A stretch of 64,000 bases of DNA from assembly GCA_002005505.1 (NCBI GenBank), contig MVGU01001523.1:24585-88584 (forward strand). Direction: 5' to 3'. The position numbers and the translations under genes are program-made. Each line of letters starts with the position of its first letter. Positions within the stretch are counted from its first letter, which is position 1. Under the pieces are notes generated by a model. It ran no database searches. It was not told where the DNA came from and saw only the letters and a list, made by a program, of their open reading frames with translations. Source of the DNA: Botryococcus braunii (Eukaryota; Chlorophyta; Trebouxiophyceae). This document shows positions 2,172 to 36,666 of the stretch, piece by piece.

Positions 2172-2255
2172 GCAAACTTTCCATACATCTTGCCCCTTCC
2201 ATCCCCTTCCATTCCTGTCCTTCCTTCCCTCCTTCCTTTCTTTTGCTTGAAGACC

Positions 2256-3020: not shown

Positions 3021-3031
3021 GGCTTCAGAAT

Positions 3032-4246: not shown

Positions 4247-4296
4247 TCCGATGGCAACCTTCCTTACGTCTCCCTTCGAACCGAGGCTCTAACCGC

Positions 4297-4309
4297 CTCG
4301 CCGATACCA
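4297..4309 (-). other. possible gypsy primer binding site
   Basis: On the minus strand TGGTATCGGCGAG lies two bases after an LTR-like CA end (TTTCA, then TT). The first seven bases, TGGTATC, match the 3' end of initiator tRNA-Met, but the match stops there. It is a weak call resting on position and seven bases. Confidence 0.35.
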
Positions 4310-4311
4310 AA

Positions 4312-4794: not shown

Positions 4795-4830
4795 ACTACA
4801 CCTGGTCCACCCTCTCCTCCACCAGAAGGT

Positions 4831-8940: not shown

Positions 8941-8958
8941 GGAAAAGGCAAGGGGAAG

Positions 8959-9691: not shown

Positions 9692-9927
9692 CTTTCCAAG
9701 GCCACACATACACACAGCACTGTTTTACGGCTTACCGTCCTACCATTTGTGTGAACACCCAGTTTTGCTGATATGCTCACAGGTTTACACTACATGTTTG
9801 TTGTATGTCTATGCTTCCATAAGATACATGATTTTATATGGTGTGGTAAATGTCTTTGGACGGGGCTGGTGCTGAAGTGGTGTGGCAAGGGCTGCAGGTG
9901 GCAATAACCAGTGCATTACTTCCACAG
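9692..9927 (+). other. host sequence, no clear gene
   Basis: AT-rich sequence with no convincing coding frame. It ends in TTACTTCCACAG, a plausible 3' splice site for the candidate exon that follows. Confidence 0.4.
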
Positions 9928-10083
9928 GTGCTGTTCCTGACGTGGGTCATGCGGCCAGCAAGGGGATGCTTTCAGATGCTAGCTCCGGTTTGTTCATGCC
10001 ACAAGACCCTGAGGTTATCAACGCCAAAACGCTACGTTCCCCTCTCGATTATGTATATTTAACCTTTGACACAGCTCTTCCAG
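9928..10083 (+). CDS. candidate host exon, unknown product
   Basis: A 156-bp open segment lies between a good acceptor (ACTTCCACAG) and a donor (CTTCCAG, then GTGTCTC), entering and leaving in phase 1. The encoded peptide includes GMLSDASSGLFMPQDPEV and RSPLDYVYLTF, which looks protein-like. I do not recognise the family. It could be an internal exon of the plus-strand gene whose last exon is at about 13048-13516, but the 3-kb gap contains repeat-like DNA and the link is a guess. Confidence 0.35.
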
Positions 10084-12700: not shown

Positions 12701-13047
12701 ACTTAAGGGGGGGGAGATGTAACGGTCTCCTCGTATTGCTGTAGTCATTAGCTTCCGCCTGTGACATGTGGGGATTCTACTCGTCTCCCGTTCCAAGGGT
12801 CCACTGGCTCTTGGCGGGACAATGCCTAGCTGGCTCCTATGTACTGCCTATCGGGGGATTGCCCATCGGGTCCCGCCCGAGCCTATGGAGGGAAGTAGGA
12901 TGCCATGCTGGAGAACCATTGGGCATATATATGCATATACATATACATATGGATATCTATCATCTATCGTTGGCACAGCCAACTGATGTAACTGGCATCT
13001 GGCCATGTTCCAATCCCATTACCTGTCCTTAGTGCTTTGAGCACTAC
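12701..13047 (+). repeat. possible solo or truncated LTR
   Basis: A purine run, AAGGGGGGGGAGA, is followed at 12718 by TGTAACGGTCTCC, which is how a gypsy 3' LTR begins after its polypurine tract. Inside is an alternating AT stretch (12927-12958, CATATATATGCATATACATA) that could be a TATA region, and TGTAACTGG at about 12986. A possible end is GAGCACTACA near 13046. No partner LTR or coding remnant is visible, so this rests on boundary signals only. Confidence 0.3.
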
Positions 13048-13516
13048 AGTAGGAGTCACTTACAAGACTGCTCATCATGTTCGAAAATATGTGGATTCCT
13101 TGAGAAAACGTATGAGTGTGCGTAACGCTCTCTTTCCCATGGCCACACAGAGTTCAGAAGGATCAGTTGTATGGGCTTCCGGAGCAACTCAACAAGGGGG
13201 AAATGTGCATGGTGCCTTTGCCGACCTACATGCAATGGGCCAAAACCGTCCACCCAAGTTCCACAATGGTGCTCTGATGGGCATTTACAACGGTCAACAT
13301 GTGGGCGGCATTCCCTTGGGGCCAAGGCACTTGCCCCCAGCACTCATGATGAATCCCACTGGCAATGGAAAGGTGGTGAAGCGGCGAAAATGTCGGAAGT
13401 GCACGGATGCGCATAAGAAAGTTGTTTATATCGGGGATTGTGGGTGTATGAAGGAAGCAGTAAGAAATGGGAAGGCAAACAAAAAGTTAAAAGTGGGAGC
13501 TTCATTCGAAGCCTAA
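13048..13516 (+). CDS. host gene, last exon, unknown function
   Basis: An open frame of about 155 codons ends in TAA at 13514-13516, following a possible acceptor (GAGCACTACAG). The peptide begins around GVTYKTAHHVRKYVDSLRKR and contains a Gly/Asn/Pro-rich middle (NRPPKFHNGALMGIYNG). It ends in a Cys/His-rich, Lys-rich tail: KCRKCTDAH, then GDCGCMKEAVRNGK. The C-x2-C…H…C-x-C spacing could bind zinc. I do not recognise the family. It is not a retroelement domain. Upstream exons are uncertain (see 9928-10083). Confidence 0.5.
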
Positions 13517-14091
13517 AGCTGCATTTTTAGTTTCTTGGGTGTCCTTGCAACTATCCATTGTTACTGAAGGATAGCAGCATATGCATGCATGCTTGGGACT
13601 GTATGCAGTGGTACGTAGCATAACCTTGTGGTTCAGACATCTTGTCTCTTTCAAGTTTTTTTTTCCCTGGTGTCAAGATTTCCTTATATTTTTCTGATAT
13701 TTGCTTTTCTTATTCTTGACATCAAATTATATGTTGCTTACACGGTGCAACTGGACATGTGGTTGACTGACGTGTCAATGAGCTTGTAGAGTTTGTACGG
13801 CACATGAAGAGGCAAAGACATATGTATTTTATAATTGACCTATGCTAATCTAGTATCTTATGTTGACATATTGACTGCTCTGTGTATGAATTAGCTCCTG
13901 AATTCAGGACAGAGGGTTTAGTAACTATAGGTTGACAGATTATTAGGTCAGTAGCAAAGTTGGTGTTATTAAAGTCCCTATGTAAGTGAACTTTTCATTA
14001 GATTCTTCAGCCCGAACCGGATCTAGTGTTTTAAATTCACCACCTATAACCTAGCTTTGGCTGCCTTCGGCCGCCTATAAGGCTCATTTAA
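13517..14091. other. convergent 3' flank of two host genes
   Basis: This AT-rich region lies between the 3' ends of the plus-strand exon ending at 13516 and the minus-strand gene ending at 14109. It carries a first copy of a hairpin at 14059-14075 (GGCTGCC, TTC loop, GGCCGCC). No ORF of note. Confidence 0.5.
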
Positions 14092-14108
14092 GGCGGCCTT
14101 CGGCCGCC
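14092..14108 (-). terminator. perfect hairpin abutting a stop codon
   Basis: GGCGGCC (14092-14098), loop TTC, GGCCGCC (14102-14108): a perfect 7-bp GC stem. The minus-strand gene's stop codon is 14111-14109, so the hairpin is the first thing in the 3' UTR. A near-identical hairpin (one G-T wobble) follows at 14075-14059. A 3'-UTR regulatory or RNA-end role is possible but unproven. Confidence 0.5.
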
Positions 14109-14401
14109 CTATAATATGGACCTATTGCCGTCATCCATCTCAGGGGTGATTAATAGATTCAGTCCCTCGGGTAGCCTCGGGTCGCGCTTGCCGCGGAATT
14201 TAGCAACAACCTGCTTCACCCTCTCAGCCAGAGCATGTGGGCCGGGGACAGAATATCTGATCCTCTTTTTCCACCACGATCGCGATTTTCCCACAGTTTC
14301 TTGCTGGGAGATGCCCTTTCCCTTGTAGTATTTGATAACGTCACGCTTGTCTTGCTCATTAGGGATGAGCATTGCATCGCTAAGAGCAGCAACAAATGGC
14401 C
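14109..14401 (-). CDS. host gene, last exon, unknown function
   Basis: The acceptor TTTTTGTGCAG precedes the exon at 14401, and the frame runs 97 codons to TAG (14111-14109). The peptide is basic and protein-like: PFVAALSDAMLIPNEQDKRD, then YYKGKGISQQETVGKSRSWW, ending in ITPEMDDGNRSIL. It enters in phase 1, which matches the donor phase of the exon at 21789-21933, so the two probably belong to one gene. A 7-kb copia (A1) then sits in the intron between them. I do not recognise the family. With the upstream pieces it would be a single-gene product broken by retrotransposons. Confidence 0.55.
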
Positions 14402-14411
14402 CTGCACAAAA

Positions 14412-14477
14412 ATGCATCACACGCTTACCCAACCCCCTCCCCAAACCCCCCTCCCCCCCCACACACACACACACATG
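14412..14477. repeat. C-rich run and CA microsatellite
   Basis: A C-rich stretch (14427-14460) ends in a run of Cs and passes into (AC)n at 14461-14476. It lies in the host intron just before the A1 insertion site. Confidence 0.8.
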
Positions 14478-14499
14478 CACACACCCACAACCTTCAGAC

Positions 14500-15200
14500 T
14501 GTTGAGTTGTGAACATACATTATAGAATGCCTTGTGCTTTAGGTGATCTTCAAATGTACATTACTAAGATACGGGTCCACTATCCACATAAGGTACCTCA
14601 AGACACGTTCGGATGAGGTCTATTTCGAACATAAGGTACAATCTGATTTAGATTACGCGTTAGTGTGAAAGGACTATTAAAGCTGCGATCATCGCATAGT
14701 CGAGCAACTGGTTTGGAAAGATACTGGGCACATAAGGATGCCAGTCTTGTTCATGCAGTTGCATGTGTCTAAAGAGCAGACAGTCGTCAAGGACTGTAGC
14801 TGGAGAGGCACGAACTTACGACCTGTCTGCTTGCTTACAGGTGCGGTGACGCAGGGTGTGTATTGGTAATGTGTTCATGTTTGATTGCTTGTTTGTAAGT
14901 GAACCATCTTAGTGGACAATCAAGTCTCCCAAACAGCTAAGGGACGGAGTCTTGATTGAGTATAGGAAGGTACTTGCTTTCAGCCGTCAGGAGCTTATCC
15001 GTGTGTAGATGCTCATTGACAGATCAACATGTAACGGAACTGGTTTGGAAAGATACTGGGCACATAAGGATGCCAGTCTTGTTCATGCAGTTGCATGTGT
15101 CTAAAGAGCAGACAGTCGTCAAGGACTGTAGTTGGAGAGGCACGAACTTACGACCTGTCTGCTTGCTTACAGGATACGCCACTGCCCATAACCTTTTACA
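14500..15200 (+). repeat. A1 5' LTR with LTR intron
   Basis: The leader segment of 135 bp is present at 14706-14840 and 15038-15172, with one difference noted (GTAGCTGG against GTAGTTGG). Copy 1 ends TTACAG and continues GTGCGGTG (donor). Copy 2 ends in the pyrimidine-rich CTGCTTGCTTACAG (acceptor). The predicted intron is 14841-15172 (332 nt). TATTAAA (14675-14681) lies 31 bp before copy 1. TGTAA (15030-15034) lies just before copy 2. The tail after copy 2 is 28 nt and contains GCCCATAACC. CATAAGGTAC occurs in U3 at about 14588 and 14629. Confidence 0.9.
14675..14681 (+). promoter_or_regulatory. TATA-like box of A1 LTR
   Basis: TATTAAA lies 31 bp upstream of the first copy of the leader repeat, the spacing expected if transcription starts at the repeat boundary (14706). 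The 3' LTR of the same element has lost 10 bp in between. Confidence 0.5.
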
Positions 15201-20864: not shown

Positions 20865-21555
20865 TGTTGAGTTGTGAACATACATTATAGAATGCCTTGT
20901 GCTTTAGGTGATCTTCAAATGTACATTATTAGGATACGGGTCCACTATCCACATAAGGTACCTCAAGACACGTTCGGATGAGGTCTATTTCGAACATAAG
21001 GTACAATCTGATTTAGATTACGCGTTAGTGTGAAAGGACTATTAAAGCTGCGATCATCGCAACTGGTTTGGAAAGATACTGGGCACATAAGGATGCCAGT
21101 CTTGTTCATGCAGTTGCATGTGTCTAAAGAGCAGACAGTCGTCAAGGACTGTAGCTGGAGAGGCACGAACTTCCGACCTGTCTGCTTGCTTACAGGTGCG
21201 GTGACGCAGGGTGTGTATTGGTAATGTGTTCATGTTTGATTGCTTGTTTGTAAGTGAACCATCTTAGTGGACAATCAAGTCTCCCAAACAGCTAAGGGAC
21301 GGAGTCTTGATTGAGTATAGGAAGGTACTTGCTTTCAGCCGTCAGGAGCTTATCCGTGTGTAGATGCTCATTGACAGATCAACATGTGACGGAACTGGTT
21401 TGGAAAGATACTGGGCACATAAGGATGCCAGTCTTGTTCATGCAGTTGCATGTGTCTAAAGAGCAGACAGTCGTCAAGGACTGTAGCTGGAGAGGCACGA
21501 ACTTACGACCTGTCTGCTTGCTTACAGGATACGCCACTGCCCATAACCTTTTACA
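20865..21555 (+). repeat. A1 3' LTR
   Basis: Preceded by the polypurine tract GGCAAGGGGAAG (20853-20864). Copies of the 135-bp leader lie at 21061-21195 and 21393-21527, with donor GTGCGG after copy 1. The polyadenylation-type TGTAA of the 5' LTR is TGTGA here (21386-21390). The length of 691 bp follows from the 10-bp loss before copy 1. Confidence 0.9.
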
Positions 21556-22222: not shown

Positions 22223-22588
22223 TGTAAAAGGTTATGGGCAATCGGCTTTCCCTGTACAAAGCAGACAGGTCGTCAATAGACGAAGTTACTCCAGCTACAG
22301 TCCGTACGACTGTCTGCTGAGTGTCACACACAACTGTTGGACAAGACTAGCATCTGGTAATGCCCAGCATCTTTCACAACCCGTTGGTATTCACTCTGGT
22401 GGGGCAACCTTAAGAGTTCATCCGACAAACGTGTGATCTAGATAGGATTGTACCTTATGTTCGAAAACGTCCAGAATCTGCCGTGTCTCAAGGTACCTTA
22501 TGTCCTCAATGGACCCATATCCTAATAGTGCACACATAAAGATCACTTAAAGCACAAGGCATTCAATAATAATGTTCAGAACTCAACA
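22223..22588 (-). repeat. A3 3' LTR, intronless form
   Basis: On the minus strand it begins TGTTGAGTTCTG and ends CCTTTTACA. It is 366 bp and holds a single leader segment (ending TTTGTACAG, then GGAAAG), with no second copy and no spacer. That is the size expected of a family A LTR (701 bp) lacking its 332-bp intron. Host exon sequence abuts it at 22222. Confidence 0.8.
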
Positions 22589-22611
22589 CTTCCCCTTGCC
22601 TGCATGCTTTA

Positions 22612-23878
22612 TGTGTATCTTCTCAAACCTAGTGAATCACGATGACCAACAAACACGGGCTTGGCAAGTGGCTTGGTCATAATGTCAGCCACATTGCGAG
22701 CAGATTCCACATAGAGGATATCTACCTGCCCAAGTGCCATAGCTTCCCTAGCGTAGTGGAAGCTTACTGCAACGTGCTTTGTGAATTTGGAATATAGGGG
22801 GTTCCGTAAATTAGAAATGCATCCTTGGTTGTCACAGAAAATTTTGACCCTCCAAGGTGCAGCCCCTATCTCTTCCAAGAAGCCCCTTAGCCAGTTGGCT
22901 TCCTTCACAATATGGCCAGCTGCCATAAACTCAGCTTGCACAGTTGAGGTAGCAACTGCTTCTTGCTTCCCCAAACCACGGCACTACCATAGACTGATAG
23001 AACATAGCCAGTGGTGGAATACCTGTGGTCCAGGTCCCCAGCATAGTCGGCATCAACATAGCCTTCTAGCTCAGGGCCCTTTCCACCCAGAGTAAGAGCT
23101 AACTCTCTGGTATCTCTCAAGTACTTCAGCACTCGAATGGCCTCATTCCAGTGTGAGGTAGTGGGTGTCATTCTATACCTTGACAACACTCCAACAGCCT
23201 GAGAAATGTCAGGCCGGGTCGTATTGGCTATGTACAGCAACGATCCAATTAACTCGCAGTATCGATGACCAGGTGGCAGAGGGGTACCAGCCCCATGTGA
23301 CATACCATCTGAGGACTCGGGTCTGCTGCTAGCCACGAAGTCCTTGGACATGGGGGTATCAACCACACGCCCATCATCAGCAACGCCAAACTTCTCCACA
23401 AGAGCATCAATCTTGGGAATGCAACTCATGGAAATAGTGCCCTGAACTCTATTGCGTAGGACGTGACACCCCAGGAAATCATTCACCTCTCCCAAATCAT
23501 GGATGGTGAAGTCCTTCTTCAATAACTCTTTCCCCCACTCAATCTCTGCAACCACTCTGGCAACTATGAGAAGATCATCGACATAAACAAGAATAAACGA
23601 CAGATTACCATCAGGGGCCCTCCTGATGTATACCCCAGCGTCGCTCTTGCACACACTATACCCCATCACGCTCAACTTGTCGCTCAAGGTCTTGTGCCAA
23701 GCCCGTGGGGCTTGTTTAAGACCGTAGAGTGCCTTCCTGAGCTTGCACACAACTCTCGTGTTGCCATTCTCAAATCCTGGTGGTTGGGTCACATAGACCT
23801 CTTCCTCCAACTCCCCATTGAGAAAAGCTGTCTTGATATCCACTTGGTGGATCTCAAGATTTTGTGTGGCAGCCACTG
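22612..23878 (-). pseudogene. A3 pol 3' half: RT and RNase H
   Basis: On the minus strand RT runs from the insertion point (just before [17 protein letters not shown]) through [10 protein letters not shown] to RNase H (VDADYAGD). A small deletion in the SKKQSSVATST stretch near 22960 shifts the frame, so the last 121 codons (to ARNVADIMTKPLA) are in another frame. The TSD of C, CACTG (23874-23878), lies at the break. Confidence 0.85.
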
Positions 23879-24496
23879 TGTTGTGTCTTGGGAGAGAGAT
23901 AACATAAGGTACGGATCTGCTTGTGCGGAGATACGTATACGTAAGTATGGGAGCTCTCTCTCGTTCACACCATTGGTTTTGGACACGTCACATAAAGTGA
24001 ATAGAGGGACATATGATGTGAAAAGAAAAACGCCTGCATCAGGACACAAAAATTGCCGTTATATACTAGGAGACCTGGAGAGAAAGTTCTCCGTGGGTGA
24101 CATGAGTTCATAGCCTATCACGCAAGTACAGATCTCAGTCAGTGAAGTTCAAAGAACCATGATGGAGATCCTATTGTGAGTGTACACGTGTAGGGCAGGT
24201 GTACAAGATATAGCATAAGTCCGTACTTCGTGGGTGTCACAAGTGTACCTCACACACTTAGGGTGTGGTGATAAAGTACACCTTTCTGTGGTGATCTGTG
24301 ATTGTGCGTAACGCGCCATTAAGCTAGGAGGGGCAGATCGGCAGTTCGTTCCTCAGACAGTTGGAACTTTCTATCGAAGTTGCCTGGAGTCCTATTCAGT
24401 GGGAATCGCTGAAGGACCTGTCTGAGACCTGCCGGAGTATTGCTCTCACTGATATCATGCTATGCTTGTGCATGTCGGCTGCATGAGAGAATATCG

Positions 24497-24601
24497 GTAA
24501 GGCCCGGTTAGAGCATCGGTTGTGTTTAGTAAATGATAGTTCATAAGTGTTAATGAGTGCCATTTAGTTGAAAAGACTGAATAACATTCAGTACTGTGCA
24601 G
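24497..24601 (+). other. LTR intron 1 of element C
   Basis: 105 nt with GTAAGG at the 5' end and ACTGTGCAG at the 3' end. It is present in copy 1 and missing exactly from copy 2, where ATATCG joins GAGGTT (25022/25023). The same intron lies at 31006-31110 in the 3' LTR. Confidence 0.92.
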
Positions 24602-24672
24602 GAGGTTGTTGTTTTCTGTCTATTGAGACAGTGCGAGCTGCATAAGTGTAGAATGTACACGGGTGGGCAGCG

Positions 24673-24781
24673 GTAAGAACACCTCCTGATAAAAACTTGT
24701 GCATTGATGGAAGCCATTGTGTTGTTTAGATACTGGTGTAAGTATGATACTGATAGAGAGCAATGTACGTGACTCGTACAG
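24673..24781 (+). other. LTR intron 2 of element C
   Basis: 109 nt, GTAAGAAC to CTCGTACAG. It is present in copy 1 and missing exactly from copy 2, where GCAGCG joins GTGGTC (25093/25094). The same intron lies at 31182-31290 in the 3' LTR. Confidence 0.92.
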
Positions 24782-24857
24782 GTGGTCAGTTGCGAGGATG
24801 GCGTCGTAACTGATGTGAGTGCTTGAGTAAGTGACAGATACTTACGGTTGCGAACAG

Positions 24858-25169
24858 GTAATAAACAACACCATGTAAATAGACAGTTGGAACTTTCTAT
24901 CGAAGTTGCCTGGAGTCCTATTCAGTGGGAATCGCTGAAGGACCTGTCTGAGACCTGCCGGAGTATTGCTCTCACTGATATCATGCTATGCTTGTGCATG
25001 TGGGCTGCGTGAGAGAATATCGGAGGTTGTTGTTTTCTGTCTATTGAGACAGTGCGAGCTGCATAAGTGTAGAATGTACACGGGTGGGCAGCGGTGGTCA
25101 GTTGCGAGGATGGCGTCGTAACTGATGTGAGTGCTTGAGTAAGTGACAGATACTTACGGTTGCGAACAG
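24858..25169 (+). other. predicted LTR intron 3 of C (spans copy 2)
   Basis: A donor (GAACAG, then GTAATA) follows copy 1, and copy 2 ends with the same CGAACAG followed by GTGCTT. Splicing from 24858 to 25169 (312 nt) would remove spacer plus copy 2 and leave exons a, b, c joined to the 41-nt tail. This is inferred by analogy with the other families, because copy 2 itself shows only that introns 1 and 2 were removed. Confidence 0.6.
24860..24878 (+). promoter_or_regulatory. poly(A) signals before copy 2 of C
   Basis: AATAAA (24860-24865) and TGTAA (24874-24878) sit in the 23-bp spacer just before copy 2 at 24881. Cleavage 10-20 nt downstream would end the RNA inside the first bases of copy 2. 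The same spacer is at 31367-31389 in the 3' LTR. Confidence 0.55.
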
Positions 25170-25213
25170 GTGCTTATTCTACAAATACGGACATCAACTC
25201 CAACACAACAATA

Positions 25214-25228
25214 GGTTATGGGGCCCGC
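25214..25228 (+). other. primer-site-like sequence of C
   Basis: GGTTATGGGGCCCGC begins four bases after the LTR end. It resembles the site GGTTATGGGCCCAC of the other copias but has an extra G and is displaced. It may pair with the same tRNA-iMet anticodon arm imperfectly, or with a variant tRNA. Confidence 0.5.
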
Positions 25229-25246
25229 TGCAATCTCCAATGGAGC

Positions 25247-26104
25247 ATGCGAAGAACCAAGCGACCAACTGATCCCGGAAAGCCGCTAGTAAGAACAAAC
25301 TATCCACTTCCGTGTGTTGAGGTGACTGTGGAAGTCTTTGGTGACGTTGGTAGACCTGGTTTATATCTGGATCTTGAACATCCAGGGCATAACCCTCACG
25401 TGTGGTGTCATAGAAAACTTATCGTTCATCATCAAGACATTCGCTTGGAAAACCTTCCGAATCCTGTGATACGTGCAAACTATATATTTGTAGAAGCAGC
25501 AAAGAGGGGTCACGTGCTTGATTGTGAAGAGAATCAGATTGAGTGCTCAGAAGAATGGCTTGATGAGTTAAGGAAAGGTTTTCCTGAAAAGCCGATTGTC
25601 TTGCTGAAGTGGGAAGAACTGTGGATCGAAAATCACGTGAGAAAAGAGTACATAGTGACTGCTGTTGCAACTACCTACAGCACTCAGTTGCCCAAGGAAG
25701 ATTGGGAGTTTCATTACTTTCTGACAGTGCTTAGCAGGTTGAGGCATCTGTGCAAGTCAGCTGGTGCATGCTTCTATGATAACAGCCCTTTCTTACACGT
25801 AGAAAAGGGCGTGGTAGAAAAGGGAAATCCAAATCCATTGATATCTTCCTGGTACACTAAATATAGGGAGTACATCTCTATAGTACAGTACCAGTTCCGC
25901 GTTTGGTCCAACTTTTCAACGTTTCTGTTTGATAGACTTCCATCATGGACACTGGTGGAGGATCACAGGCTGGACCCGTTGTTAATGCATCCCGAGTATT
26001 ACCAACTGAGGGAGTCAACATTGGGGGGGGACACACTGGAGAGATTGACGTGGGAGGAAGTGGCACAGCAGACGGGGTTCAAGCACGTGATTCAGGGCCC
26101 GTGA
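25247..26104 (+). CDS. C ORF1, extra upstream protein
   Basis: 285 codons from the first in-frame ATG, MRRTKRPTDPGKPL, to TGA at 26104. The frame is open further back into the LTR, but without ATG. The protein has no retroelement domain I recognise. It is rich in Trp, Tyr and His in its middle (HNPHVWCHRKLIVHHQDIRL, then LPKEDWEFHYFLTVL), which suggests a folded globular protein. Its last 160 bases overlap gag-pol, which lies in the -1 frame. An 8-G run in the overlap would allow a -1 shift, making an ORF1-Gag-Pol fusion. B has a shorter extra ORF in the same place (36733-37230). Function unknown; an RNA-binding, assembly or regulatory role is speculation. Confidence 0.7.
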   Translation: MRRTKRPTDPGKPLVRTNYPLPCVEVTVEVFGDVGRPGLYLDLEHPGHNPHVWCHRKLIVHHQDIRLENLPNPVIRANYIFVEAAKRGHVLDCEENQIECSEEWLDELRKGFPEKPIVLLKWEELWIENHVRKEYIVTAVATTYSTQLPKEDWEFHYFLTVLSRLRHLCKSAGACFYDNSPFLHVEKGVVEKGNPNPLISSWYTKYREYISIVQYQFRVWSNFSTFLFDRLPSWTLVEDHRLDPLLMHPEYYQLRESTLGGDTLERLTWEEVAQQTGFKHVIQGP

Positions 26105-29100
26105 GCACGTCAGGGAGCGAAGACACCACGAGTCCGGTAAATTCAAGCTTGCAAGTGACTGCTACACTTGACAGGCTTGGTTTCTCCTTAGACATCTGGA
26201 GACAGAGTGTTGTTCACTGTGCTGTGAGTAAAAATGTGTGGCAGTGTCTGAAGACACACATGCCCGGGACTAAGGGCGATGCGGTAGCTCTTCACTTGTT
26301 ACTTCAGAAGATTCCAGAAGTGTGGGCACAAAAGGTGGCATTTATGGAATCTGCTCATGTTGCCCTGAAATGGATTATTAGTCAGTTTGAGGGTGGAGCC
26401 AATTTGGACATAAATGATGAGTGGCTGGAGTTGCTTGACAATGAGATTATGGGAAATGAAATGTCATTGGAGGAGTACGTCAGCCGCAAGCAACTCCTTG
26501 CGAAGCGTCTGTCCACCAATGCCATGCCCATCACTACTGCCAAGCTGAAGAAATCAATTTTAAAGTGCCTGCCCTATCAGTTTGATGCCCACAAGGCATC
26601 ACTGACGGCATCCACAGCAACAGTGGGTGTGGAGGGGACGTTGACGGCCATCCGCGCAGTGGCAGAGTCCATCGGGTTCAATGATAAAGTTCCACGCGTA
26701 CCGAGGGCCGCAACAGCCAAGAAGGAGCCATCCGGACGATATGAGGGAAGGCCATTTCGTGGGACCTGCTACAACTGCCATCAAGTGGGACACAAGAGAG
26801 CTGATTGTCCAGCACTGGCAAAACAAGAAGGAGGTAATTCACAAGGGACTCGTGCAGGCATGGCCACTGCAGGTATGCATGATGGCGTAGAAGGCCAATG
26901 GTTGGTGGATACAGGAGCCACTAATCATATCTGCAATGATATTCGTCTTATGTCAAATGTGGTGGCATATGATGTTGCCAAGCCGTTGTGTTTGGCTGCA
27001 AGTGATGGAAGCGCATTAAGAAAAGCACAAGGAAATGTAGTACTGTCGGTGAAAGGTGGTGGGAGCATATTGTTGACACAAGTTGAGTATGTTCCAACAG
27101 CCACTGATAATTTGTTTTCAGTGTCTGCGGCTGTGAATGATGGTTGCAAATTTTCAGTCAATGAAAGGGGTGAATATGTCAATGTTTCGGCAGAAAAGAG
27201 TGGATTTGAGTGTGAAATTGTGTCAATAGGGCGACTGTATTTCCTCTCAAGTAATCAGCGGTTGTGTGCTTGGGGAGGGGCAGCAGCCTCTTTGGTCACT
27301 ACTAAAGACGAAACAGAGATATGGCACAGAAGATTGGGTCACCCTGGCATTGTGTGCATGTCACGGATGATGAGAGATAATTTTCTGAATGATCTGAAGG
27401 GCAGCACTGCAGAAATTGAAAAAGTCGTTACTCATTGTGATGCGTGCATTCGGGGGAAGCAGAGTAAGACTCCACTGCCTACCTCCATGGGTGCAGAGTC
27501 TACAGAGAGACTGCAGCTTGTCCACATGGACGTCATGGGGGAGATGCCAGTTGTTGGGCTGGGTGGAGAGCGGTACTTGCTGGTCCTGCTAGACGACTTC
27601 TCGCACAAGTGTGAAGCTCGATCGTTCAGCTCCAAGGCTGAGGTAGGCCAGCTTGTCCAAGAAATCCTTCTGAAATGGGAAGTATCCACCAAATGTAAAG
27701 TGGGTACTGTGAGGACTGATAGGGGAACTGAATTTGTAAACAGTGACCTGTCTCAGTTTTTCTCACGTAAAGGGATAACGCATCAAACAAGCGCTCCTTA
27801 TACGCCCGAGCAGAATGGAAAGGTTGAGAGAATTAACAGAGTAATCAAGGAAAGAGTGAGGGCTTTGCTTTTTGATGCTGAAGCAGGGCCTGAGCTGTGG
27901 CCTGAAGCAGTTCGCACGGTTGTTTATTTGTTAAACTTCAGTGCAGTAAGGGGCAAGAATGCATGTCCCAATGAGCTGTTTTATGGAGGGAAACCTACGT
28001 GCAAGTACTTCAAGATCTGGGGTTGTCTTGCATATGTTAGGCTGCGAGAACGGCAGCTGACAGCGTTGGGTCCCCGCTCTGTTGCTGGCATGTTCGTGGG
28101 GTACGCACAAGGGTCAAAGGCGTACCGGGTGCTGGTGAAAGGAAAAATTGTTGTGAGCAAAGATGTGCGGTTCGTAGAAGACGAACTAGGGTATTCAGTG
28201 GCCTCTCCAGAGGGAGAGCACAGAGAGAAGGATGTACAGGGTCTGTTTGTGTCTGATGATGATGATGTGGAGTTGGTGGAAGAAGTACAAGAGAGAGTTG
28301 TTGATGTTCCAAGGCAGCTGGCGGTAGAGCCGGCGTTACATGTCGGCAATCTCAGGGATGCGTTACTGCGAGCCCGAGGACTTCTTCAACAACTGCCACC
28401 GGCTGAAGCTGACCAGCAAATGAGTGAGGAGGATGAAGAAAGGGAAGAAGTGAACCAGAGTGAGGAGGATGACAGAGTTGATAGGGCGGATGGTCAAGAC
28501 GATGACCCCGGACACGATGTAGAAATTGATTCTGCCGGGGAAGAAGAAAGAAGGGGTGGGGGAAGATATGATCTGAGAGCAAGCGTGGCTCCACCTGACA
28601 GGTTTGTGCCTGGTGCAAATGCAACAAGTGTACGGGTACATGCTGCTGTGATTGAAAGGGGCGGGGAAGAGAAAATGAGCGCTGCAGATTTGGTCATCCC
28701 CAAGCACATTGGGGAAGCTATGTCTAGCCCTCAAAAGGAGTATTGGAAACAGGCTATGCAAGAGGAACTGGACGCGATTGAAGAGTGTGACACATTTGAG
28801 GTTGTAAATAGGCCTGAAGGTGCAAAAGTCATTCCTCTCATCTGGGTGTTTGCACTTAAAACTGATGAATTTGGGGATGTGGTCCGATTCAAGGCAAGAC
28901 TGGTCGCACAGGGATGCCGTCAGGTTGAGGGTATTGACTGTGACCAAACTTTCGCTCCTGTGAGCACGCATGCTTGTAGACGGGTGCTGTTGAACATTGC
29001 AGCGACTGAAAATATGTCCATTCATCAAGTTGACATCAAAACTGCCTTCTTGAATGGAGAGCTCGAGGAGGAAGTGTACGTGTCACAGCCTCCAGGGTTT

Positions 29101-30273
29101 TCTAATGGAAACAAGAAGGAAGTGTACCGCCTGAAGAAAGCTTTGTACGGCCTGAAACAGGCACCCAGGGCCTGGCACAAGAGGTTGACAAGGGACTTGG
29201 GAGAAATGGGTTTTAAGCCATGCTTGAGTGATCCCGGATTATTCATCAATGCGGGAATAGGGGAAGCACGTGTGTTTATTGTCACGTATGTGGATGACTT
29301 ACTGATAATCAGTAAGGATGATACTCGTGTGCAGGAGATCAAGTGTGAGCTTAAGAGTAGGTTCAAAATTCATGACTTGGGGGAAGTCAAGAATTTTCTG
29401 GGAAGCGAAGTGAAGAGAGATAGAGAGAAGGGAGTGTTAGTGATCACTAACACTCAGAAAATTCGGGACTTGGCACAGTCCTTTGGGATTGAGGAAGGGG
29501 GACGGGTGTACAATACACCCATGTGTAAGAGCTTTGTGGCAACGGAGCAGCCACAGGGTGAGGTGGCTGAGGAGGTGGTGGGGTCAGGTTCTAAACTGCC
29601 TGATGGTCATAGGTATCTAGATCTTATCGGCTCGCTGCAGTATTTGGCAAATACCACGCGTCCAGATATCTCGCAAGCTGTCAGCTTGCAGGCGCGCTAC
29701 CGTGCAGCTCCCACAACTGCTCATTACAAGGCAGGACTGAGAGTTGTAAGTTATCTTCTTGGTACTAAGGAGATGGGGCTGGTATATGGGGGCACTGGGC
29801 AGCAGACCCTTGAAGGGTATGTTGATTCCGATTTTGCAGGAGACATGGATACACGGAAATCCACAACGGGATTTGTGTTCATGTTGAATGGAGGTGCAGT
29901 CTCTTGGGGAAGCAAGAAACAGCAGTCCGTCGCCACATCTACGGTGGAGGCGGAGTATATAGCTGCAAGCCATGCAATCAAAGAGGGAGTGTGGCTTGGT
30001 AGCTTGCTGGGGGAGTTGGGAAGAGTAGTGAGAGGGGTGAAGCTCATGATGGATAACATGGGCTGCATCGCTAACCTGCAGAATCATGTGCTGTCAAAAT
30101 ACACAAAGCACATAAGTGTGTGTTATCATCAGGCTCGTGAGAAGGTTGCATGGGGTCAAATTCTGCCTGAGTATGTGGCCACCGATGAGAATGTGGCGGA
30201 TCTGTTCACAAAACCATTGAACAGCCCGTCCTTCTTGAAGCACAGGGACAGCCTTAGGATGGGAATGGTGTAA
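25945..30273 (+). CDS. C gag-pol polyprotein, intact
   Basis: 1,442 codons with no stop or frameshift. Order: Gag with capsid-like helices (residues about 70-230); zinc knuckle CYNCHQVGHKRADC (275-288); retropepsin WLVDTGATNHICND (319-332); integrase zinc block EIWHRRLGH and CDACIRGK (458-505); integrase core Asp at HMDVMGE (528) and RTDRGTEF (592), Glu in QNGKVERINR (about 627); acidic linker (about 760-880); RT from about 925 with [30 protein letters not shown] and catalytic YVDDLLII (about 1115-1118); RNase H VDSDFAGDMD (1293) to LFTKPL. All catalytic motifs are present. The start ATG lies inside ORF1. It is of normal copia length. It would supply protease, integrase, RT and RNase H to itself and possibly to related defective elements. 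Confidence 0.96.
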   Translation: MDTGGGSQAGPVVNASRVLPTEGVNIGGGHTGEIDVGGSGTADGVQARDSGPVSTSGSEDTTSPVNSSLQVTATLDRLGFSLDIWRQSVVHCAVSKNVWQCLKTHMPGTKGDAVALHLLLQKIPEVWAQKVAFMESAHVALKWIISQFEGGANLDINDEWLELLDNEIMGNEMSLEEYVSRKQLLAKRLSTNAMPITTAKLKKSILKCLPYQFDAHKASLTASTATVGVEGTLTAIRAVAESIGFNDKVPRVPRAATAKKEPSGRYEGRPFRGTCYNCHQVGHKRADCPALAKQEGGNSQGTRAGMATAGMHDGVEGQWLVDTGATNHICNDIRLMSNVVAYDVAKPLCLAASDGSALRKAQGNVVLSVKGGGSILLTQVEYVPTATDNLFSVSAAVNDGCKFSVNERGEYVNVSAEKSGFECEIVSIGRLYFLSSNQRLCAWGGAAASLVTTKDETEIWHRRLGHPGIVCMSRMMRDNFLNDLKGSTAEIEKVVTHCDACIRGKQSKTPLPTSMGAESTERLQLVHMDVMGEMPVVGLGGERYLLVLLDDFSHKCEARSFSSKAEVGQLVQEILLKWEVSTKCKVGTVRTDRGTEFVNSDLSQFFSRKGITHQTSAPYTPEQNGKVERINRVIKERVRALLFDAEAGPELWPEAVRTVVYLLNFSAVRGKNACPNELFYGGKPTCKYFKIWGCLAYVRLRERQLTALGPRSVAGMFVGYAQGSKAYRVLVKGKIVVSKDVRFVEDELGYSVASPEGEHREKDVQGLFVSDDDDVELVEEVQERVVDVPRQLAVEPALHVGNLRDALLRARGLLQQLPPAEADQQMSEEDEEREEVNQSEEDDRVDRADGQDDDPGHDVEIDSAGEEERRGGGRYDLRASVAPPDRFVPGANATSVRVHAAVIERGGEEKMSAADLVIPKHIGEAMSSPQKEYWKQAMQEELDAIEECDTFEVVNRPEGAKVIPLIWVFALKTDEFGDVVRFKARLVAQGCRQVEGIDCDQTFAPVSTHACRRVLLNIAATENMSIHQVDIKTAFLNGELEEEVYVSQPPGFSNGNKKEVYRLKKALYGLKQAPRAWHKRLTRDLGEMGFKPCLSDPGLFINAGIGEARVFIVTYVDDLLIISKDDTRVQEIKCELKSRFKIHDLGEVKNFLGSEVKRDREKGVLVITNTQKIRDLAQSFGIEEGGRVYNTPMCKSFVATEQPQGEVAEEVVGSGSKLPDGHRYLDLIGSLQYLANTTRPDISQAVSLQARYRAAPTTAHYKAGLRVVSYLLGTKEMGLVYGGTGQQTLEGYVDSDFAGDMDTRKSTTGFVFMLNGGAVSWGSKKQQSVATSTVEAEYIAASHAIKEGVWLGSLLGELGRVVRGVKLMMDNMGCIANLQNHVLSKYTKHISVCYHQAREKVAWGQILPEYVATDENVADLFTKPLNSPSFLKHRDSLRMGMV
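26023..26030 (+). promoter_or_regulatory. possible -1 frameshift site (G8)
   Basis: In the ORF1 frame the text reads TTG GGG GGG GAC, giving the heptamer G GGG GGG with the right phase for a -1 slip. After the slip the next codon is GGA in the gag-pol frame. It lies 75 bases before the ORF1 stop. No downstream pseudoknot was worked out. Confidence 0.4.
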
Positions 30274-30387
30274 CGGGTGAGAATGAGAGAGAAGGAGAGT
30301 AATGGACTTCTGACTGTACAAAACAAAACTCAATTAGTAATGAACAGACATTGAACTTTATAAGTGAGTGTCCAAAAGGGGAAGTAT

Positions 30388-31719
30388 TGTTGTGTCTTGG
30401 GAGAGAGATAACATAAGGTACGGATCTGCTTGTGCGGAGATACGTATACGTAAGTATGGGAGCTCTCTCTCGTTCACACCATTGGTTTTGGACACGTCAC
30501 ATAAAGTTAATAGAGGGACATATGATGTGAAAAGAAAAACGCCTGCATCAGGACACAAAAATTGCCGTTATATACTAGGAGACCTGGAGAGAAAGTTCTC
30601 CGTGGGTGACATGAGTTCATAGCCTATCACGCAAGTACAGATCTCAGTCAGTGAAGTTCAAAGAACCATGATGGAGATCCTATTGTGAGTGTACACGTGT
30701 AGGGCAGGTGTACAAGATATAGCATAAGTCCGTACTTCGTGGGTGTCACAAGTGTACCTCACACACTTAGGGTGTGGTGATAAAGTACACCTTTCTGCGG
30801 TGATCTGTGATTGTGCGTAACGCGCGATTAAGCTAGGAGGGGCAGATCGGCAGTTCGTTCCTCAGACAGTTGGAACTTTCTATCGAAGTTGCCTGGAGTC
30901 CTATTCAGTGGGAATCGCTGAAGGACCTGTCTGAGACCTGCCGGAGTATTGCTCTCACTGATATCATGCTATGCTTGTGCATGTGGGCTGCGTGAGAGAA
31001 TATCGGTAAGGCCCGGTTAGAGCATCGGTTGTGTTTAGTAAATGATAGTTCATAAGTGTTAATGAGTGCCATTTAGTTGAAAAGACTGAATAACATTCAG
31101 TACTGTGCAGGAGGTTGTTGTTTTCTGTCTATTGAGACAGTGCGAGCTGCATAAGTGTAGAATGTACACGGGTGGGCAGCGGTAAGAACACCTCCTGATA
31201 AAAACTTGTGCATTGATGGAAGCCATTGTGTTGTTTAGATACTGGTGTAAGTATGATACTGATAGAGAGCAATGTACGTGACTCGTACAGGTGGTCAGTT
31301 GCGAGGATGGCGTCGTAACTGATGTGAGTGCTTGAGTAAGTGACAGATACTTACGGTTGCGAACAGGTAATAAACAACACCATGTAAATAGACAGTTGGA
31401 ACTTTCTATCGAAGTTGCCTGGAGTCCTATTCAGTGGGAATCGCTGAAGGACCTGTCTGAGACCTGCCGGAGTATTGCTCTCACTGATATCATGCTATGC
31501 TTGTGCATGTGGGCTGCGTGAGAGAATATCGGAGGTTGTTGTTTTCTGTCTATTGAGACAGTGCGAGCTGCATAAGTGTAGAATGTACACGGGTGGGCAG
31601 CGGTGGTCAGTTGCGAGGATGGCGTCGTAACTGATGTGAGTGCTTGAGTAAGTGACAGATACTTACGGTTGCGAACAGGTGCTTATTCTACAAATACGGA
31701 CATCAACTCCAACACAACA
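30388..31719 (+). repeat. C 3' LTR
   Basis: It follows the polypurine tract AAAAGGGGAAGTAT (30374-30387). It is the same length as the 5' LTR. Copy 1: 30864-31005, 31111-31181, 31291-31366, with introns 31006-31110 and 31182-31290. Copy 2 is 31390-31678 without introns. Tail 31679-31719. Both copies in both LTRs keep identical exon lengths. The differences from the 5' LTR that I noticed are all in U3 or exon a (for example 23999 G against T). Confidence 0.95.
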
Positions 31720-31724
31720 CACTG

Positions 31725-34490
31725 CCAGCACAGCTCTCCTAGCACCATAGCTGCTGGTAGGTGCAAAAACCTCACCAACATCTATACCAGGAATCTGTCT
31801 GCAACCCTGGGCAACCAATCTTGCTTTAAACCGAGTGACATTCCCATGTGCATCGTTTTTTGTAGAAAAAATCCAATGAACAGGGATAACTTTCTGCCCA
31901 TGGGTTCTTTCCACATACTGCATAACCTCATGGGTGTCTAAAAACTCCATCTCCTCTTGCATTGCCTGCTGCCAAAACTCCCACTGAGGTGAGCGCTGGG
32001 CTTCCCTCAAGTTTGAGGGCACGTGAACTTTTCCCAACCTGACAGAAGGTACACTCTGTACCTTATGCTGTGGTGCAGCAGGGCTGTCAGCCTTACTGGT
32101 GCTGTTCCCTTCTCTCTCTCTCTCTCTCTCCCTGGTTGCCAGAATAAGGTACATTATGTACCTTATGCTGGGACTGGGCAGTACTGCCGGGATTATCTGA
32201 TTCCTTCTCAAGTCTCTCTCTCTCTCCTTGACTACTGGACTCATGTGCAGCACCCTTACATTCTCGCACCTTCCGCGATGCAGAGGGGAGCAGCAGCTCT
32301 CTCTCTCTCCTGGACTCACACTTGGGCACACTACCCAGACTTGCCTGAGCTGCGCCTACAATGTCAGCCTGCACACCATAAGCATGACTAGCCAGTGACT
32401 GGGATTGGGCACCAGCTTCCCCTACTGCTGGCATGTCTAACCCACTACTCTCATCTCTTACATCTGCACCGAACATAGCCTCGACTGTCTCAACCTGCCC
32501 CTGCATATCAGGAAGACCAACCATGTTTGGCTCACTCACAATTGCCTGACCTGGGTCAGGGGCATGCAATGGGATGTCAGAATGCTCTTTCCTAGCCACG
32601 CGCTGTACATAACGCTGCTCCCTTGTAAGGGTGGTCCCTGGAGGAAGGGGAATTTGTGACTTCCCCTGCATTCGCAACCCCTCTTGTACCTTCTGCATTT
32701 TTTCTACCTGGGATTGAGTTTCTACACCCCCCCTGGCCAGATTCTGCATATGCTCAAGCACCGACCACGAGTGCTGAGATGGTTCTGGGGTCCCAACAGT
32801 AGAATCCAGGCTGGTGGGGGTTCCTTGGTCATGTGCTGCTATGGTCCCGTCTCCAAACTGATCCCCAGCACAAAGTCCAGAGGTCCCAGGAGCCCCAGTG
32901 GAAAGCGTCTCCACTCCATGGTCATCCTCCTCATCCCAGAACGTGGGTGGAGCAGCAGAGGGAATTGCTTGAGGCGTTGCCAGATTCTCAATGCCAAGGG
33001 GGGGTGATATCCTAGAATCATAGACAGACCCAGGCTGGACCTTTGATAGACCCACTCTCTCAGCCCCCCTCAAGTGCTCGATAAAGCTGACGTCCCTACT
33101 CTCCTTCCACACTCCATTCCCCACGTACACACGATACGCTTTAGACTGGGGACAATAACCAGTAAACATCCCAGGGATGGTCTTGGGCCCAAAAACAGAC
33201 CTTTGGCCACTGGGAATGTGCACATGGGCTACACAGCCAAACGTGCGCAGCACAGACACATCAGGTTTGACACCAAAGAATAATTCCATGGGGGTCAGGG
33301 ACCTGCCTGCAGTAGGACCCACATTGTAGAGGAGGGTAGCTGTCTCAAGCGCCTCCTTCCAAAGGGAAGGGTCTGCTGCAACATGGACCAACAGAGTCCT
33401 TGTTCGCTCCTTCAGGGTCCTATTCATCCTCTCCGCCACCCCATTCTGCTGAGGCGTGTAGGGCGCTGAGGACTCCATCTTAGTGCCCTGCTGAGCACAA
33501 AACTCTTTGCTCACACACTTCACAACCGTGCCTCGTTGGGTCTGCCAAAAACGGAGCAGGTCTATCACAGCCTTTGGGATGCAATCCTTTGACTTCACAG
33601 GCAGGGAGGCAACTTGGTGTGAACTTTCATCCACTACAGTGACCCAATATCGTTCACCTGTGATGGCAGGAGGTGATATGGGACCCACAGTATCCACATG
33701 GACTCTATCGAGTGGGTTATGTGCAGGCCTGGAAGATACATGGAAAGGAGGTCTGGAGTGTTTCCCTTGTATACACGATTCACAGTGCTTGGGGCACTCA
33801 GAGCAGGGAGCAAGGGAGATATTGATTCCTGTAACCAGATCTTCCTTGGAGAACCTCTGCATGCTGCTGGCACCAGGATGACCTAACCTAGCATGCCACA
33901 GAGATCTCTCGCTACACACGTGTCCTTTCCTAAGATGAGACGCCTCAGCCATGTGATCAATATGTCTGCAGCCAACTTGCTGCCCTCTGACAGGACTAAC
34001 AAACTCCAAAAAAATAGACCTCGTGCGCGGGTGATATCTCCACACCACCCTTCAGGTCCCTTCATGGCTGTGTAACCACCTGCAGTGTCAGTCGGGAAAG
34101 ATGCTCCATCCTGAATTGCACCAGTGACTGAAATGAGGTTGGTATGCGCAGAAGGAACACACTGCACATTGTGCAGCCAGAATACTTCGTGCCTTGCATT
34201 CACAAGGCATACAGACCCAGATGCAATGATTCCTCCCTTGGCGTCTGAGGTTGCCAAGTGCAGAGGAAGAGGCTGTCCATGCATAACTGGATTATGGAGC
34301 AATGAGAGATCATTTACTATATGCACAGAGGCACCACTATCTATTAACCAAGATGTGCTGCTAGCTCCATGCGAAGTTGGGGCAAGCACATTGAGAGAGA
34401 TAAACATCGCCTCACCAGAAGGAGGGGGTGGAGGTGGTAAATGCCACCCCGGAAACGTGTGTTGACTTGTTGGATAGTTATATGCTGAAG
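31725..34490 (-). pseudogene. A3 pol 5' half: protease to RT start
   Basis: On the minus strand it runs from the gag-protease linker (FPGWHLPPPPPP) through protease WLIDSGASVHIVND, integrase zinc block (LWHARLGHPGASSM) and core (HVDTVGPIS) to the linker with KVQSVPSV and the RT start (QVIPVHWIF region), ending at the C insertion. Frame changes are visible near 33890 and 32100-32330. The DRGTEF block of the integrase is deleted near 33510: KCV passes straight to SKEFCAQQ. That removes one catalytic Asp. Confidence 0.85.
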
Positions 34491-35191
34491 TGTAAAAGGT
34501 TATGGGCAGTGGCGTATCCTGTAAGCAAGCAGACAGGTCGTAAGTTCGTGCCTCTCCAGCTACAGTCCTTGACGACTGTCTGCTCTTTAGACACATGCAA
34601 CTGCATGAACAAGACTGGCATCCTTATGTGCCCAGTATCTTTCCAAACCAGTTCCGTTACATGTTGATCTGTCAATGAGCATCTACACACGGATAAGCTC
34701 CTGACGGCTGAAAGCAAGTACCTTCCTATACTCAATCAAGACTCCGTCCCTTAGCTGTTTGGGAGACTTGATTGTCCACTAAGATGGTTCACTTACAAAC
34801 AAGCAATCAAACATGAACACATTACCAATACACACCCTGCGTCACCGCACCTGTAAGCAAGCAGACAGGTCGTAAGTTCGTGCCTCTCCAGCTACAGTCC
34901 TTGACGACTGTCTGCTCTTTAGACACATGCAACTGCATGAACAAGACTGGCATCCTTATGTGCCCAGTATCTTTCCAAACCAGTTGCTCGACTATGCGGT
35001 GATCGCAGCTTTAATAGTCCTTTCACACTAACGCGTAATCTAAATCAGATTGTACCTTATGTTCGAAATAGACCTCCTCCGAACGTGTCTTGAGGTACCT
35101 TATGTGGATAGTGGACCCGTATCCTAATAATGTACATTTGAAGATCATCTAAAGCACAAGGCATTCTATAATGTATGTTCACAACTCAACA
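34491..35191 (-). repeat. A2 3' LTR, intron form
   Basis: 701 bp, the same length as the A1 5' LTR. On the minus strand copy 1 of the leader is 34985-34851 and copy 2 is 34653-34519, each 135 bp. TGTAA lies at 34661-34657, just before copy 2. The predicted intron is 34850-34519. The polypurine tract lies at 35192-35203. Confidence 0.9.
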
Positions 35192-35211
35192 CTTCCCCTT
35201 GCCTGCATGCT

Positions 35212-35974
35212 TTATGTGTATCTTCTCAAACCTAGTGAATCACGATGACCAACAAACACGGGCTTAGCAAGTGGCTTGGTCATAATGTCAGCCACATTTC
35301 GAGCAGATTCTACATAGATGATATCTACCTGCCCAAGTGCCATAGCTTCCCTAGCATAGTGGAAGCTTACTGCAACATGCTTTGTGAATTTGGAATAAAG
35401 GGGGTTCCGTAAATTGGAAATGCATCCTTGGTTGTCACAGAAAATTTTGACCCTCCAAGGTGCAGCTCCAATCTCTTCCAAGAAGCCCCTAAGCCAGTTG
35501 GCTTCCTTCACAAAATGGCCGGCTGCCATAAACTCGGCTTGCACAGTTGAGGTAGCAACTGAGCTCTGCTTCTTGCTTCCCCAAACCACGGCACTACCAT
35601 AGACTGATAGAACATAGCCAGTGGTGGAATACCTGTGGTCCAGGTCCCCAGCATAGTCGGCATCAACATAGCCTTCTAGCTCAGGCCCCTTTCCACCCAG
35701 AGTAAGAGCTAATTCTCTCGTATCTCTCAAGTACTTCAGCACTCGAATGGCCTCATTCCAGTGTGAGGTAGTGGGTGTCATTCTATACCTTGACAACACT
35801 CCAACAGCCTGAGAAATGTCAGGCCGGGTCGTATTGGCAATATATAGCAACGATCCAATCAACTCACAGTACCGATGACCAGGTGGCAGTGGGGTACCTG
35901 CCCCATGTGATAAACCATCTGAGGACTCGGGTCTGCTGCTAGCCACGAAGTCCTTGGACATGGGGGTATCAACC
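35212..35974 (-). pseudogene. A2 RNase H end of pol
   Basis: On the minus strand this 249-codon frame carries the end of RT ([20 protein letters not shown]) and RNase H ([10 protein letters not shown], then FCDNQGCISNLRNP), ending in LGLRRYT. It is interrupted after the codons for DTPMSKDF by B, with TSD CAACC at 35970-35974. The frame is clean in this part. Confidence 0.88.
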
Positions 35975-36666
35975 TGTTGTATTGGATGAGTTATTTATGC
36001 CTTTCCCTCAGTGGAGTAATAGTGGCTATTCCGTCAGTGACAATAATAAATGACTAATATGGGCGAAACTACAAAGACTTCGTAGTTAGGAACAATTTGA
36101 ATGAAGATAAAGATAACGCAAGTTACAGACACGTTTAGTGCAGGAAGGTAGTGGTGCTAGCACGGAGAGGCAAGGCACTTGTTTGGGACTACACAAGCAC
36201 TCCGGGTGTTTCCTTAAAGTTGCCCAATCAGTCCTTGATTGTTCATGTTCTAGACTCTACTCTTCGTCGCACAGTAGAGCGAACTTTGACTCACACCCTC
36301 CGTGCCGCCACTGCACAGGTAACGTGATTGTGAATAGATTGGGAGATTTGAGGCTTTGTTGACCTTAGTATTTCGTGTTATGTGTATGTGCTTGGCTATC
36401 TTATCATCGGACAATGAGATTGATCCTTTCTGAGTACGTACCAGTTAGGGTAGTTTGAATGCCGTTGTTAAGAGAGAGCAAGTGAGCAATTGTAATAGAC
36501 TTGTTTGGGACTACACAAGCACTCCGGGTGTTTCCTTAAAGTTGCCCAATCAGTCCTTGATTGTTCATGTTCTAGACTCTACTCTTCGTCGCACAGTAGA
36601 GCGAACTTTGACTCACACCCTCCGTGCCGCCACTGCACAGGAATACGCCAAGCCCATAACCTAACA
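35975..36666 (+). repeat. B 5' LTR with LTR intron
   Basis: The leader segment of 142 bp lies at 36177-36318 and 36499-36640. Copy 1 ends TGCACAG and is followed by GTAACG (donor). Copy 2 ends TGCACAG and is followed by GAATAC. The predicted intron is 36319-36640 (322 nt). TGTAA is at 36491-36495. The tail contains GCCCATAACC just before the LTR end. No clear TATA box at -30. Confidence 0.9.

Follow-up and report, generated by a model that had tools for sequence, protein, structure and literature searches.

Ty1/copia-type retrotransposons of the green alga Botryococcus braunii very likely replicate through an RNA with a spliced 5′ leader, and reverse transcription of this RNA would rebuild both a duplication of the leader and an intron, a reading drawn from the arrangement of the genomic copies. 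The reference element, element C, lies in a window of 64,000 nucleotides, which is the whole stretch of DNA analysed, and its long terminal repeats (LTRs) contain the leader twice, once interrupted by introns (copy 1) and once with the same exons joined (copy 2). The initial annotation had noticed this layout, and its reading turned out to be essentially right; the point added here is a third, apparently self-regenerating intron. The genome survey covered the 176-Mb assembly that holds the window.

Structure of element C

The features of element C are the following (window positions).

23874-23878 and 31720-31724: target duplication CACTG (5 bp)
23879-31719, + strand: element C, two 1332-bp LTRs bounding an internal region
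23879-25210, + strand: 5′ LTR, 1332 bp, TG..CA
24355-24496, + strand: copy 1 exon a, 142 bp, its first base being the putative transcription start
24497-24601, + strand: intron 1 (GTAAGG..GTGCAG), 105 bp, in copy 1 only
24602-24672, + strand: copy 1 exon b, 71 bp
24673-24781, + strand: intron 2 (GTAAGA..GTACAG), 109 bp, in copy 1 only
24782-24857, + strand: copy 1 exon c, 76 bp, ending AACAG ahead of the donor GTAATA
24858-25169, + strand: predicted intron 3, donor GTAATA at 24858, acceptor AACAG at 25169
24874-24878, + strand: TGTAA, putative poly(A) signal of the green-algal type; the tail behind it differs between insertions
24881-25169, + strand: copy 2 (exons a, b and c joined at the splice sites), 289 bp, 23 bp past copy 1
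25170-25210, + strand: remainder of U5 to the LTR end
25214-25225, + strand: primer binding site (PBS) GGTTATGGGGCC
25945-30273, + strand: pol-type ORF with gag-pre-integrase, integrase core and RVT_2 domains
30388-31719, + strand: 3′ LTR, with the layout of the 5′ LTR at +6509
30864-31005, 31006-31110 and 31111-31181, + strand: exon a, intron and exon b of copy 1 in the 3′ LTR
31182-31290, 31291-31366, 31367-31389 and 31390-31678, + strand: intron, exon c, spacer and copy 2 in the 3′ LTR

Copy 2 of the 5′ LTR is identical to the joined exons of copy 1 at 287 of 289 positions, and both mismatches fall in exon a of copy 1, which confirmed the exon and intron layout described initially. The recurrence of this layout in the 3′ LTR was likewise borne out, and the two LTRs (1332 bp each) differ by 5 mismatches. 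The predicted intron 3 would span the candidate poly(A) signal and the whole of copy 2. The spacer also contains AATAAA (24860-24865).

Element C shows the characters of Ty1/copia (Pseudoviridae), namely an integrase upstream of RVT_2 in one polyprotein, paired TG..CA LTRs, a 5-bp target duplication and a PBS close to the end of the 5′ LTR. In contrast to that group, the leader is present twice in the LTR, and an intron at the R/U5 border would be rebuilt in each round. The PBS is presumably used in a manner resembling the half tRNA-iMet priming of Drosophila copia. The ORFs at 25160-26104 and 25945-30273 (both +) overlap but are read in different frames, and a frameshift or some other mechanism may therefore link gag and pol; no Pfam match was found for the ORF at 25160-26104. 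The closest named proteins to the pol ORF, by score, belong to Micractinium and Tetradesmus (38-43%). Close relatives are also present in environmental data, where the metagenome proteins P0001 and P0003 match residues 900-1400 of the pol ORF at 94% and 83% identity. Element C itself seems to be inserted within a minus-strand A-type element (window 22572-23878 and 31720-35974).

Doubled leaders in the window and in the genome

Six leader families (A, B, C, E, G and H) with two near-identical leader copies per LTR are present in the window. The LTRs other than those of element C are listed below.

9189-9671, + strand: family B LTR, copies 9189-9340 and 9520-9671, copy 2 ending TAG
14706-15173, + strand: family A 5′ LTR, copies 14706-14841 and 15038-15173, spacer holding TGTAACGG
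21061-21528, + strand: family A 3′ LTR
34518-34985, - strand: A-type LTR with two copies
36177-36641, + strand: family E 5′ LTR, copies 36177-36319 and 36499-36641
42817-43281, + strand: family E 3′ LTR
48142-48526, - strand: collapsed A-type LTR with U3, a single copy, U5 and PBS (C500:72726-73110)
50622-51244, - strand: family G 3′ LTR with two 141-bp copies
57405 and 56923 (copy starts), - strand: family G 5′ LTR
60523-60785, + strand: family H, a 113-bp copy, a 37-nt spacer with TGTAACAA and a second copy at 60673

In all six families, copy 1 runs into a donor-like CAG|GT and TGTAA lies 1-3 nt ahead of copy 2; copy 2 ends with CAG ahead of the U5-side sequence, except for TAG in family B. 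The six leaders, that of C included, are 35-64% alike, about the level of shuffled sequences or slightly higher (35-55% for shuffled leaders against the E leader). In family H, TATATATAG is located ~30 nt ahead of copy 1. AATAAA was considered as a general poly(A) signal and rejected: the family C spacer contains it, but it was not found in the spacer sequences inspected for families A, E, G and H; TGTAA is favoured for this role since it is common to the spacers of A, C, E, G and H. Among direct-repeat pairs in window positions 1-14500, only that of family B was found. A Ty3/gypsy-type element with gag, aspartyl protease and RVT_1 domains occupies window positions 1272-4246 on the minus strand.

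Across the genome, the PBS word GGTTATGGGSCC occurred at 1927 sites, compared with 10 for the reversed control pattern. Twenty consecutive sites were taken from 100 listed of the 1927, and a copy pair was present just upstream of the PBS in 18 of these 20 copia sites, the other two (L044 and L049) having a single copy. For family C, the 40 matches scored, of 103 candidates, to the second-copy region were all near full length, and a separate exon a was located upstream in 39 of them, the 40th being cut by a contig end. The repetition of such matches throughout the genome excluded chance. The pair also recurs in LTR families with dissimilar leaders: 11 representatives are only 35-81% alike, and in all 11 copy 1 ends with CAG. 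In L034, the CAG|GT donor was not found by the automatic rule, which counts against the model.

A second multi-intron family is represented by L038, in which exons of ~125, 60 and 62 bp are separated by GT-AG introns in copy 1 and joined in copy 2. Its diverged relatives in C116, C153, C24 and C65 gave matches of 70-78% identity unbroken across both exon joins, with a separate exon c just upstream of each exon-joined match.

No relatives of the elements were found in scans of viral contigs. A scan of genome contigs yielded 15 copia-bearing contigs labelled bacterial or archaeal (L051-L065), and these are probably eukaryotic contamination. The short contigs L052, L055 and L059 hold GGTTATGGG with no copy pair beside it, and L061 contains a 90-bp tandem pair ~440 bases before another PBS-like word.

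Introns in first copies and their absence from second copies

Copy 2 is uninterrupted in all 30 family C LTRs fetched. Copy 1 contains both introns in 29 of these and parts of both in L003, which is cut at a contig end. The genome-wide count for family C concerned intron 1 only and relied on exact short patterns that miss diverged copies, with 100 of 110 junction sites listed. Among the matches listed, spacer-linked second copies comprised 39 spliced, 0 unspliced and 7 unscored cases (n=46), and U3-linked copies comprised 40 unspliced, 3 spliced and 18 unscored cases (n=61). An alignment of all genomic copies had been proposed at the outset as a check; for intron 1 of family C, every scorable second copy (39/39) is thus spliced and 40/43 scorable U3-linked copies are unspliced, a result that supports the initial suggestion that strong-stop cDNA of the spliced leader is appended behind an unspliced copy 1.

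The three intron-less U3-linked copies belong to C20 (twice) and C210. One of them, L066 (the C20 LTR at 828 kb), was read through to U5 and has the collapsed single-copy form U3-abc-U5. The other two, L071 and L074 (the partner LTR of C20, and C210), are intron-less and were read at the U3 junction only; one more piece of C210 gave N.

Renewal of the copies and the junction ahead of copy 2

Copy 1 and copy 2 of the same LTR agree at 98.6-100% in 10 of the 11 representatives and at 92.7% in L038. The median within-LTR difference in family C is 1 in 289 (29 LTRs). At 26 diagnostic columns, chosen where L005 and L030 differ, both copies fall into the same subfamily in 28 of 29 family C LTRs; L028 shows an intermediate state that is alike in its two copies. 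The exception is the chimeric L029, whose copy 1 carries 25/26 states of one subfamily and whose copy 2 carries 26/26 of the other. Its U5 is of the L028/L030 type, also found in element C of the window, and its spacer tail is one found in the group of its copy 1. In the tree, copy 2 of L029 groups with L030 (99/97), and both fall within the subfamily 3 clade (100/100), with bootstrap values not fully settled. A first-strand transfer between two RNAs would produce this pattern, and a conversion tract ending at the same place is possible.

The tails between CCATGTA and copy 2 of family C are of 11 kinds in 29 LTRs, and 13 kinds ahead of copy 2 were counted in 46 cases genome-wide, length changes included. 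The flanks are constant by comparison: 27 of the 29 family C LTRs agree in the spacer upstream of the tail and 26 in the 20 nt that precede copy 1, and copy 2 opens with the same ten bases in every one of them. Variable tails between constant flanks indicate that the left end of copy 2 behaves as a join and that of copy 1 does not. In family A, the tail is CGG in 73 of 82 entered (100 listed, 584 in all), and some junction tails are common to several insertions; it follows from these uniform and shared tails that a new scar is not left in every round. In L069 and L070 (C25), the family A copy 2 is preceded by 8 nt like the U3 end instead of TAACGG, as an RNA start farther upstream would give.

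RNA start, RNA end and possible splicing fossils

TATA-like words were located at -27 to -30 of copy 1 in 5 of 13 leaders (A, B, L031, H and L047). The rule found no such word near -30 in 7 of 13 (E, G, L035, L037, L038, L039 and L040), and family C has ATTAA at -37. Within the spacer, TGTAA is found with its first base 6-8 nt ahead of copy 2 in 18 of the 19 LTRs tabulated, which include several related ones, compared with a frequency of 0.0038 for TGTAA starting 6-9 nt before a random window site. L046, which contains a shortened copy, has the same TGTAACGG with TGTAA at -14 of copy 2. The available text of PMC1868727 places the peak of chlorophyte UGUAA about 17 nt before the cleavage site; this spacing would put the RNA end ~10 nt inside copy 2 and give a short R.

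Two LTRs may retain traces of alternative splicing. L067 (C384:8650-9330) is a three-unit LTR in which an extra a-b unit runs directly into the spacer, followed by a full copy 2; the middle unit possibly arose by skipping exon c up to its own end, the very sequence that the model uses as the copy 2 acceptor. L027 lacks an 83-nt GT..AG stretch of U5, exon c being joined directly to the sequence behind it. Each junction occurs at one place in the genome, and both could be fossils of splice choice. The joins show short microhomology (ACAG in L027, GGTAA in L067), so deletion is possible instead.

Proposed replication cycle

Transcription would begin at the first base of copy 1. From the RNA of the 5′ LTR, the internal introns would be removed together with intron 3, which begins where copy 1 ends and includes all of copy 2; the splicing of introns 1 and 2 is reflected indirectly in the sequence of copy 2, and the removal of intron 3 is our inference. 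Taking out intron 3 would eliminate the poly(A) signal and copy 2, so that the RNA begins with the spliced leader followed by U5 and the PBS. At the other end, the transcript would terminate ~10 nt inside copy 2 of the 3′ LTR, past TGTAA. The last acceptor would then be absent, leaving the donor, the spacer and copy 1 unspliced. Strong-stop cDNA of the spliced leader is envisaged to transfer to the RNA 3′ end via the short terminal homology R and to be extended through the spacer, unspliced copy 1 and U3. Such a transfer would give a daughter LTR with the order U3, unspliced copy 1, spacer, spliced copy 2 and U5.

Intron 3 would be remade in each round: the RNA 3′ end would supply the donor, and the re-copied exon would supply the acceptor at its end. 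Remaking it in this way would explain why the copies end with CAG, which serves at once as exon end and 3′ splice site. The intron could not be lost from the 3′ LTR, since its acceptor is missing from the RNA there. Introns 1 and 2 could be lost, and the single-exon families may represent such losses. The model requires introns 1 and 2 of family C to escape splicing in the 3′ LTR, which counts against it; a cap-proximal preference is a guess at the reason.

Alternative explanations

The initial annotation had argued that copy 2 derives from spliced RNA and not from a tandem duplication of DNA, and this stands: exact splice joins in many copies rule out both chance and simple tandem duplication. 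A variant in which an intronless leader was duplicated at the DNA level and copy 1 later acquired introns is highly improbable. It could appeal to the single-exon families A, B, E, G and H, which are duplicated without internal introns. These families nevertheless keep the donor, TGTAA and the acceptor at the same places; moreover, in both C and L038, whose leaders are 54% alike, copy 1 holds two introns and copy 2 is intronless, and the concerted evolution of the copies is left unexplained. It is also improbable, though less so, that an ancestor acquired copy 2 from spliced RNA in a single event and that copy 2 has since been inherited as DNA and kept matched to copy 1 by gene conversion. A single capture accounts for the exact splice joins, and an exchange between copies is suggested by LTR pairs mixing collapsed and two-copy forms and by a three-copy LTR. 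Under this explanation, however, the exons would have stayed alike within LTRs across leaders 35-81% alike, yet intron 1 entered 0/39 scorable second copies and is missing from only 3/43 scorable U3-linked copies. Conversion also poorly explains why the tails vary solely at the left end of copy 2, or how the exon-skipped unit of L067 arose.

Within the proposed cycle of splicing and reverse transcription, the strong-stop cDNA might be attached to the RNA 3′ end by an end-to-end jump between templates, aided by a poly(A) tail or terminal microhomology, rather than through R homology. The junction tails vary in length and A-run, and those consisting partly of A-runs make a jump onto the poly(A) tail possible; L069 and L070 are joined at an abnormal place, behind the 8 nt like the U3 end. 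The jump is nonetheless unlikely, considering that CGG accounts for 73 of the 82 tails entered for family A and that the UGUAA spacing, as given in the available text of PMC1868727, would put the RNA end ~10 nt inside copy 2. A question apart is whether LTRs with one or three copies arose by direct-repeat recombination after insertion and are uninformative on reverse transcription, which is a real possibility, somewhat short of even. Of the 673 U3-copy sites in family A, the first 100 comprised 71 two-copy and 1 three-copy LTRs, together with 28 that had no exact copy-2 junction at the expected distance; 14 of these 28 match the collapsed LTR nearly full length (40 of 1537 candidates scored). 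The coordinates of three family A pairs (C16:627521/633567, C39:176081/182127 and C28:676886/683271) combine one collapsed with one two-copy LTR at element-like spacing, as recombination would predict, and the three-copy L068 has a two-copy neighbour at such spacing. On the other hand, both LTRs of the L049 pair are collapsed (370 bp, 99.7% alike), as are those of the family C pair in C20, read at the U3 junction at both ends and through to U5 in one LTR; such pairs point to birth in the collapsed form. DNA-level exchange between copies probably acts as well. LTRs with one or three copies therefore do not prove strand transfer, because direct-repeat recombination yields the same forms.

Relation to known systems and implications

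No described element with a doubled-leader LTR was found in the accessible text of open-licence PMC papers, in agreement with the initial annotation, which knew of no such LTR element. Penelope-like elements can keep introns, and their reverse transcriptase and ends differ; element C has RVT_2 and paired LTRs with a target duplication. The foamy virus genome is unspliced, whereas the reverse-transcribed leader of the algal elements would be spliced, with a second copy as the result. The pol of element C is also of the copia type with RVT_2, not a retroviral reverse transcriptase as in foamy viruses.

In the available passages of PMC3694450, foamy viruses carry their splice donor ahead of the poly(A) signal in R. 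The algal LTRs contain a donor-like CAG|GT followed by the candidate signal TGTAA; the suppression in foamy viruses is described there as independent of splicing. The same passages describe the RSV, MMTV and HTLV-1 type, with the poly(A) signal upstream of R. The algal arrangement, as the reverse transcriptase would see it, resembles this type in having TGTAA upstream of a short R. It differs in that the putative start lies upstream of the signal (by about 140 to 520 bases), the gap being bridged by the predicted splice. Introns are functional in the plant LTR elements Ogre and EVADE, where they serve to make subgenomic RNAs, and the available text of PMC12786077 mentions no leader intron in their LTRs. 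A doubled leader is described neither for foamy viruses nor for Ogre and EVADE in the available parts of these two sources (PMC3694450, PMC12786077).

An intron in a retroelement should vanish when spliced RNA is the template, which is the classical test for an RNA intermediate (PMC12786077, in the text available). In the algal elements, the redundancy of the LTR apparently restores the intron in every round, and splicing could thereby become an obligatory step of the cycle. Splice-and-append is likely to be a distinct replication mode of LTR retrotransposons, in which an intron at the R/U5 border would be removed and reassembled from the two RNA ends in each round and thus be inherited through spliced RNA; judged from the genomic copies, this mode would serve most copia elements of one green-algal genome, with exon ends doubling as 3′ splice sites. 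If true, it is a further way of coping with two identical poly(A) sites, the signal in the 5′ LTR being bypassed. The LTRs may also preserve, as fossils in DNA, past splice choices, transcription starts and strand transfers, and both first-strand transfer and recombination between elements could become readable from genome sequence alone.
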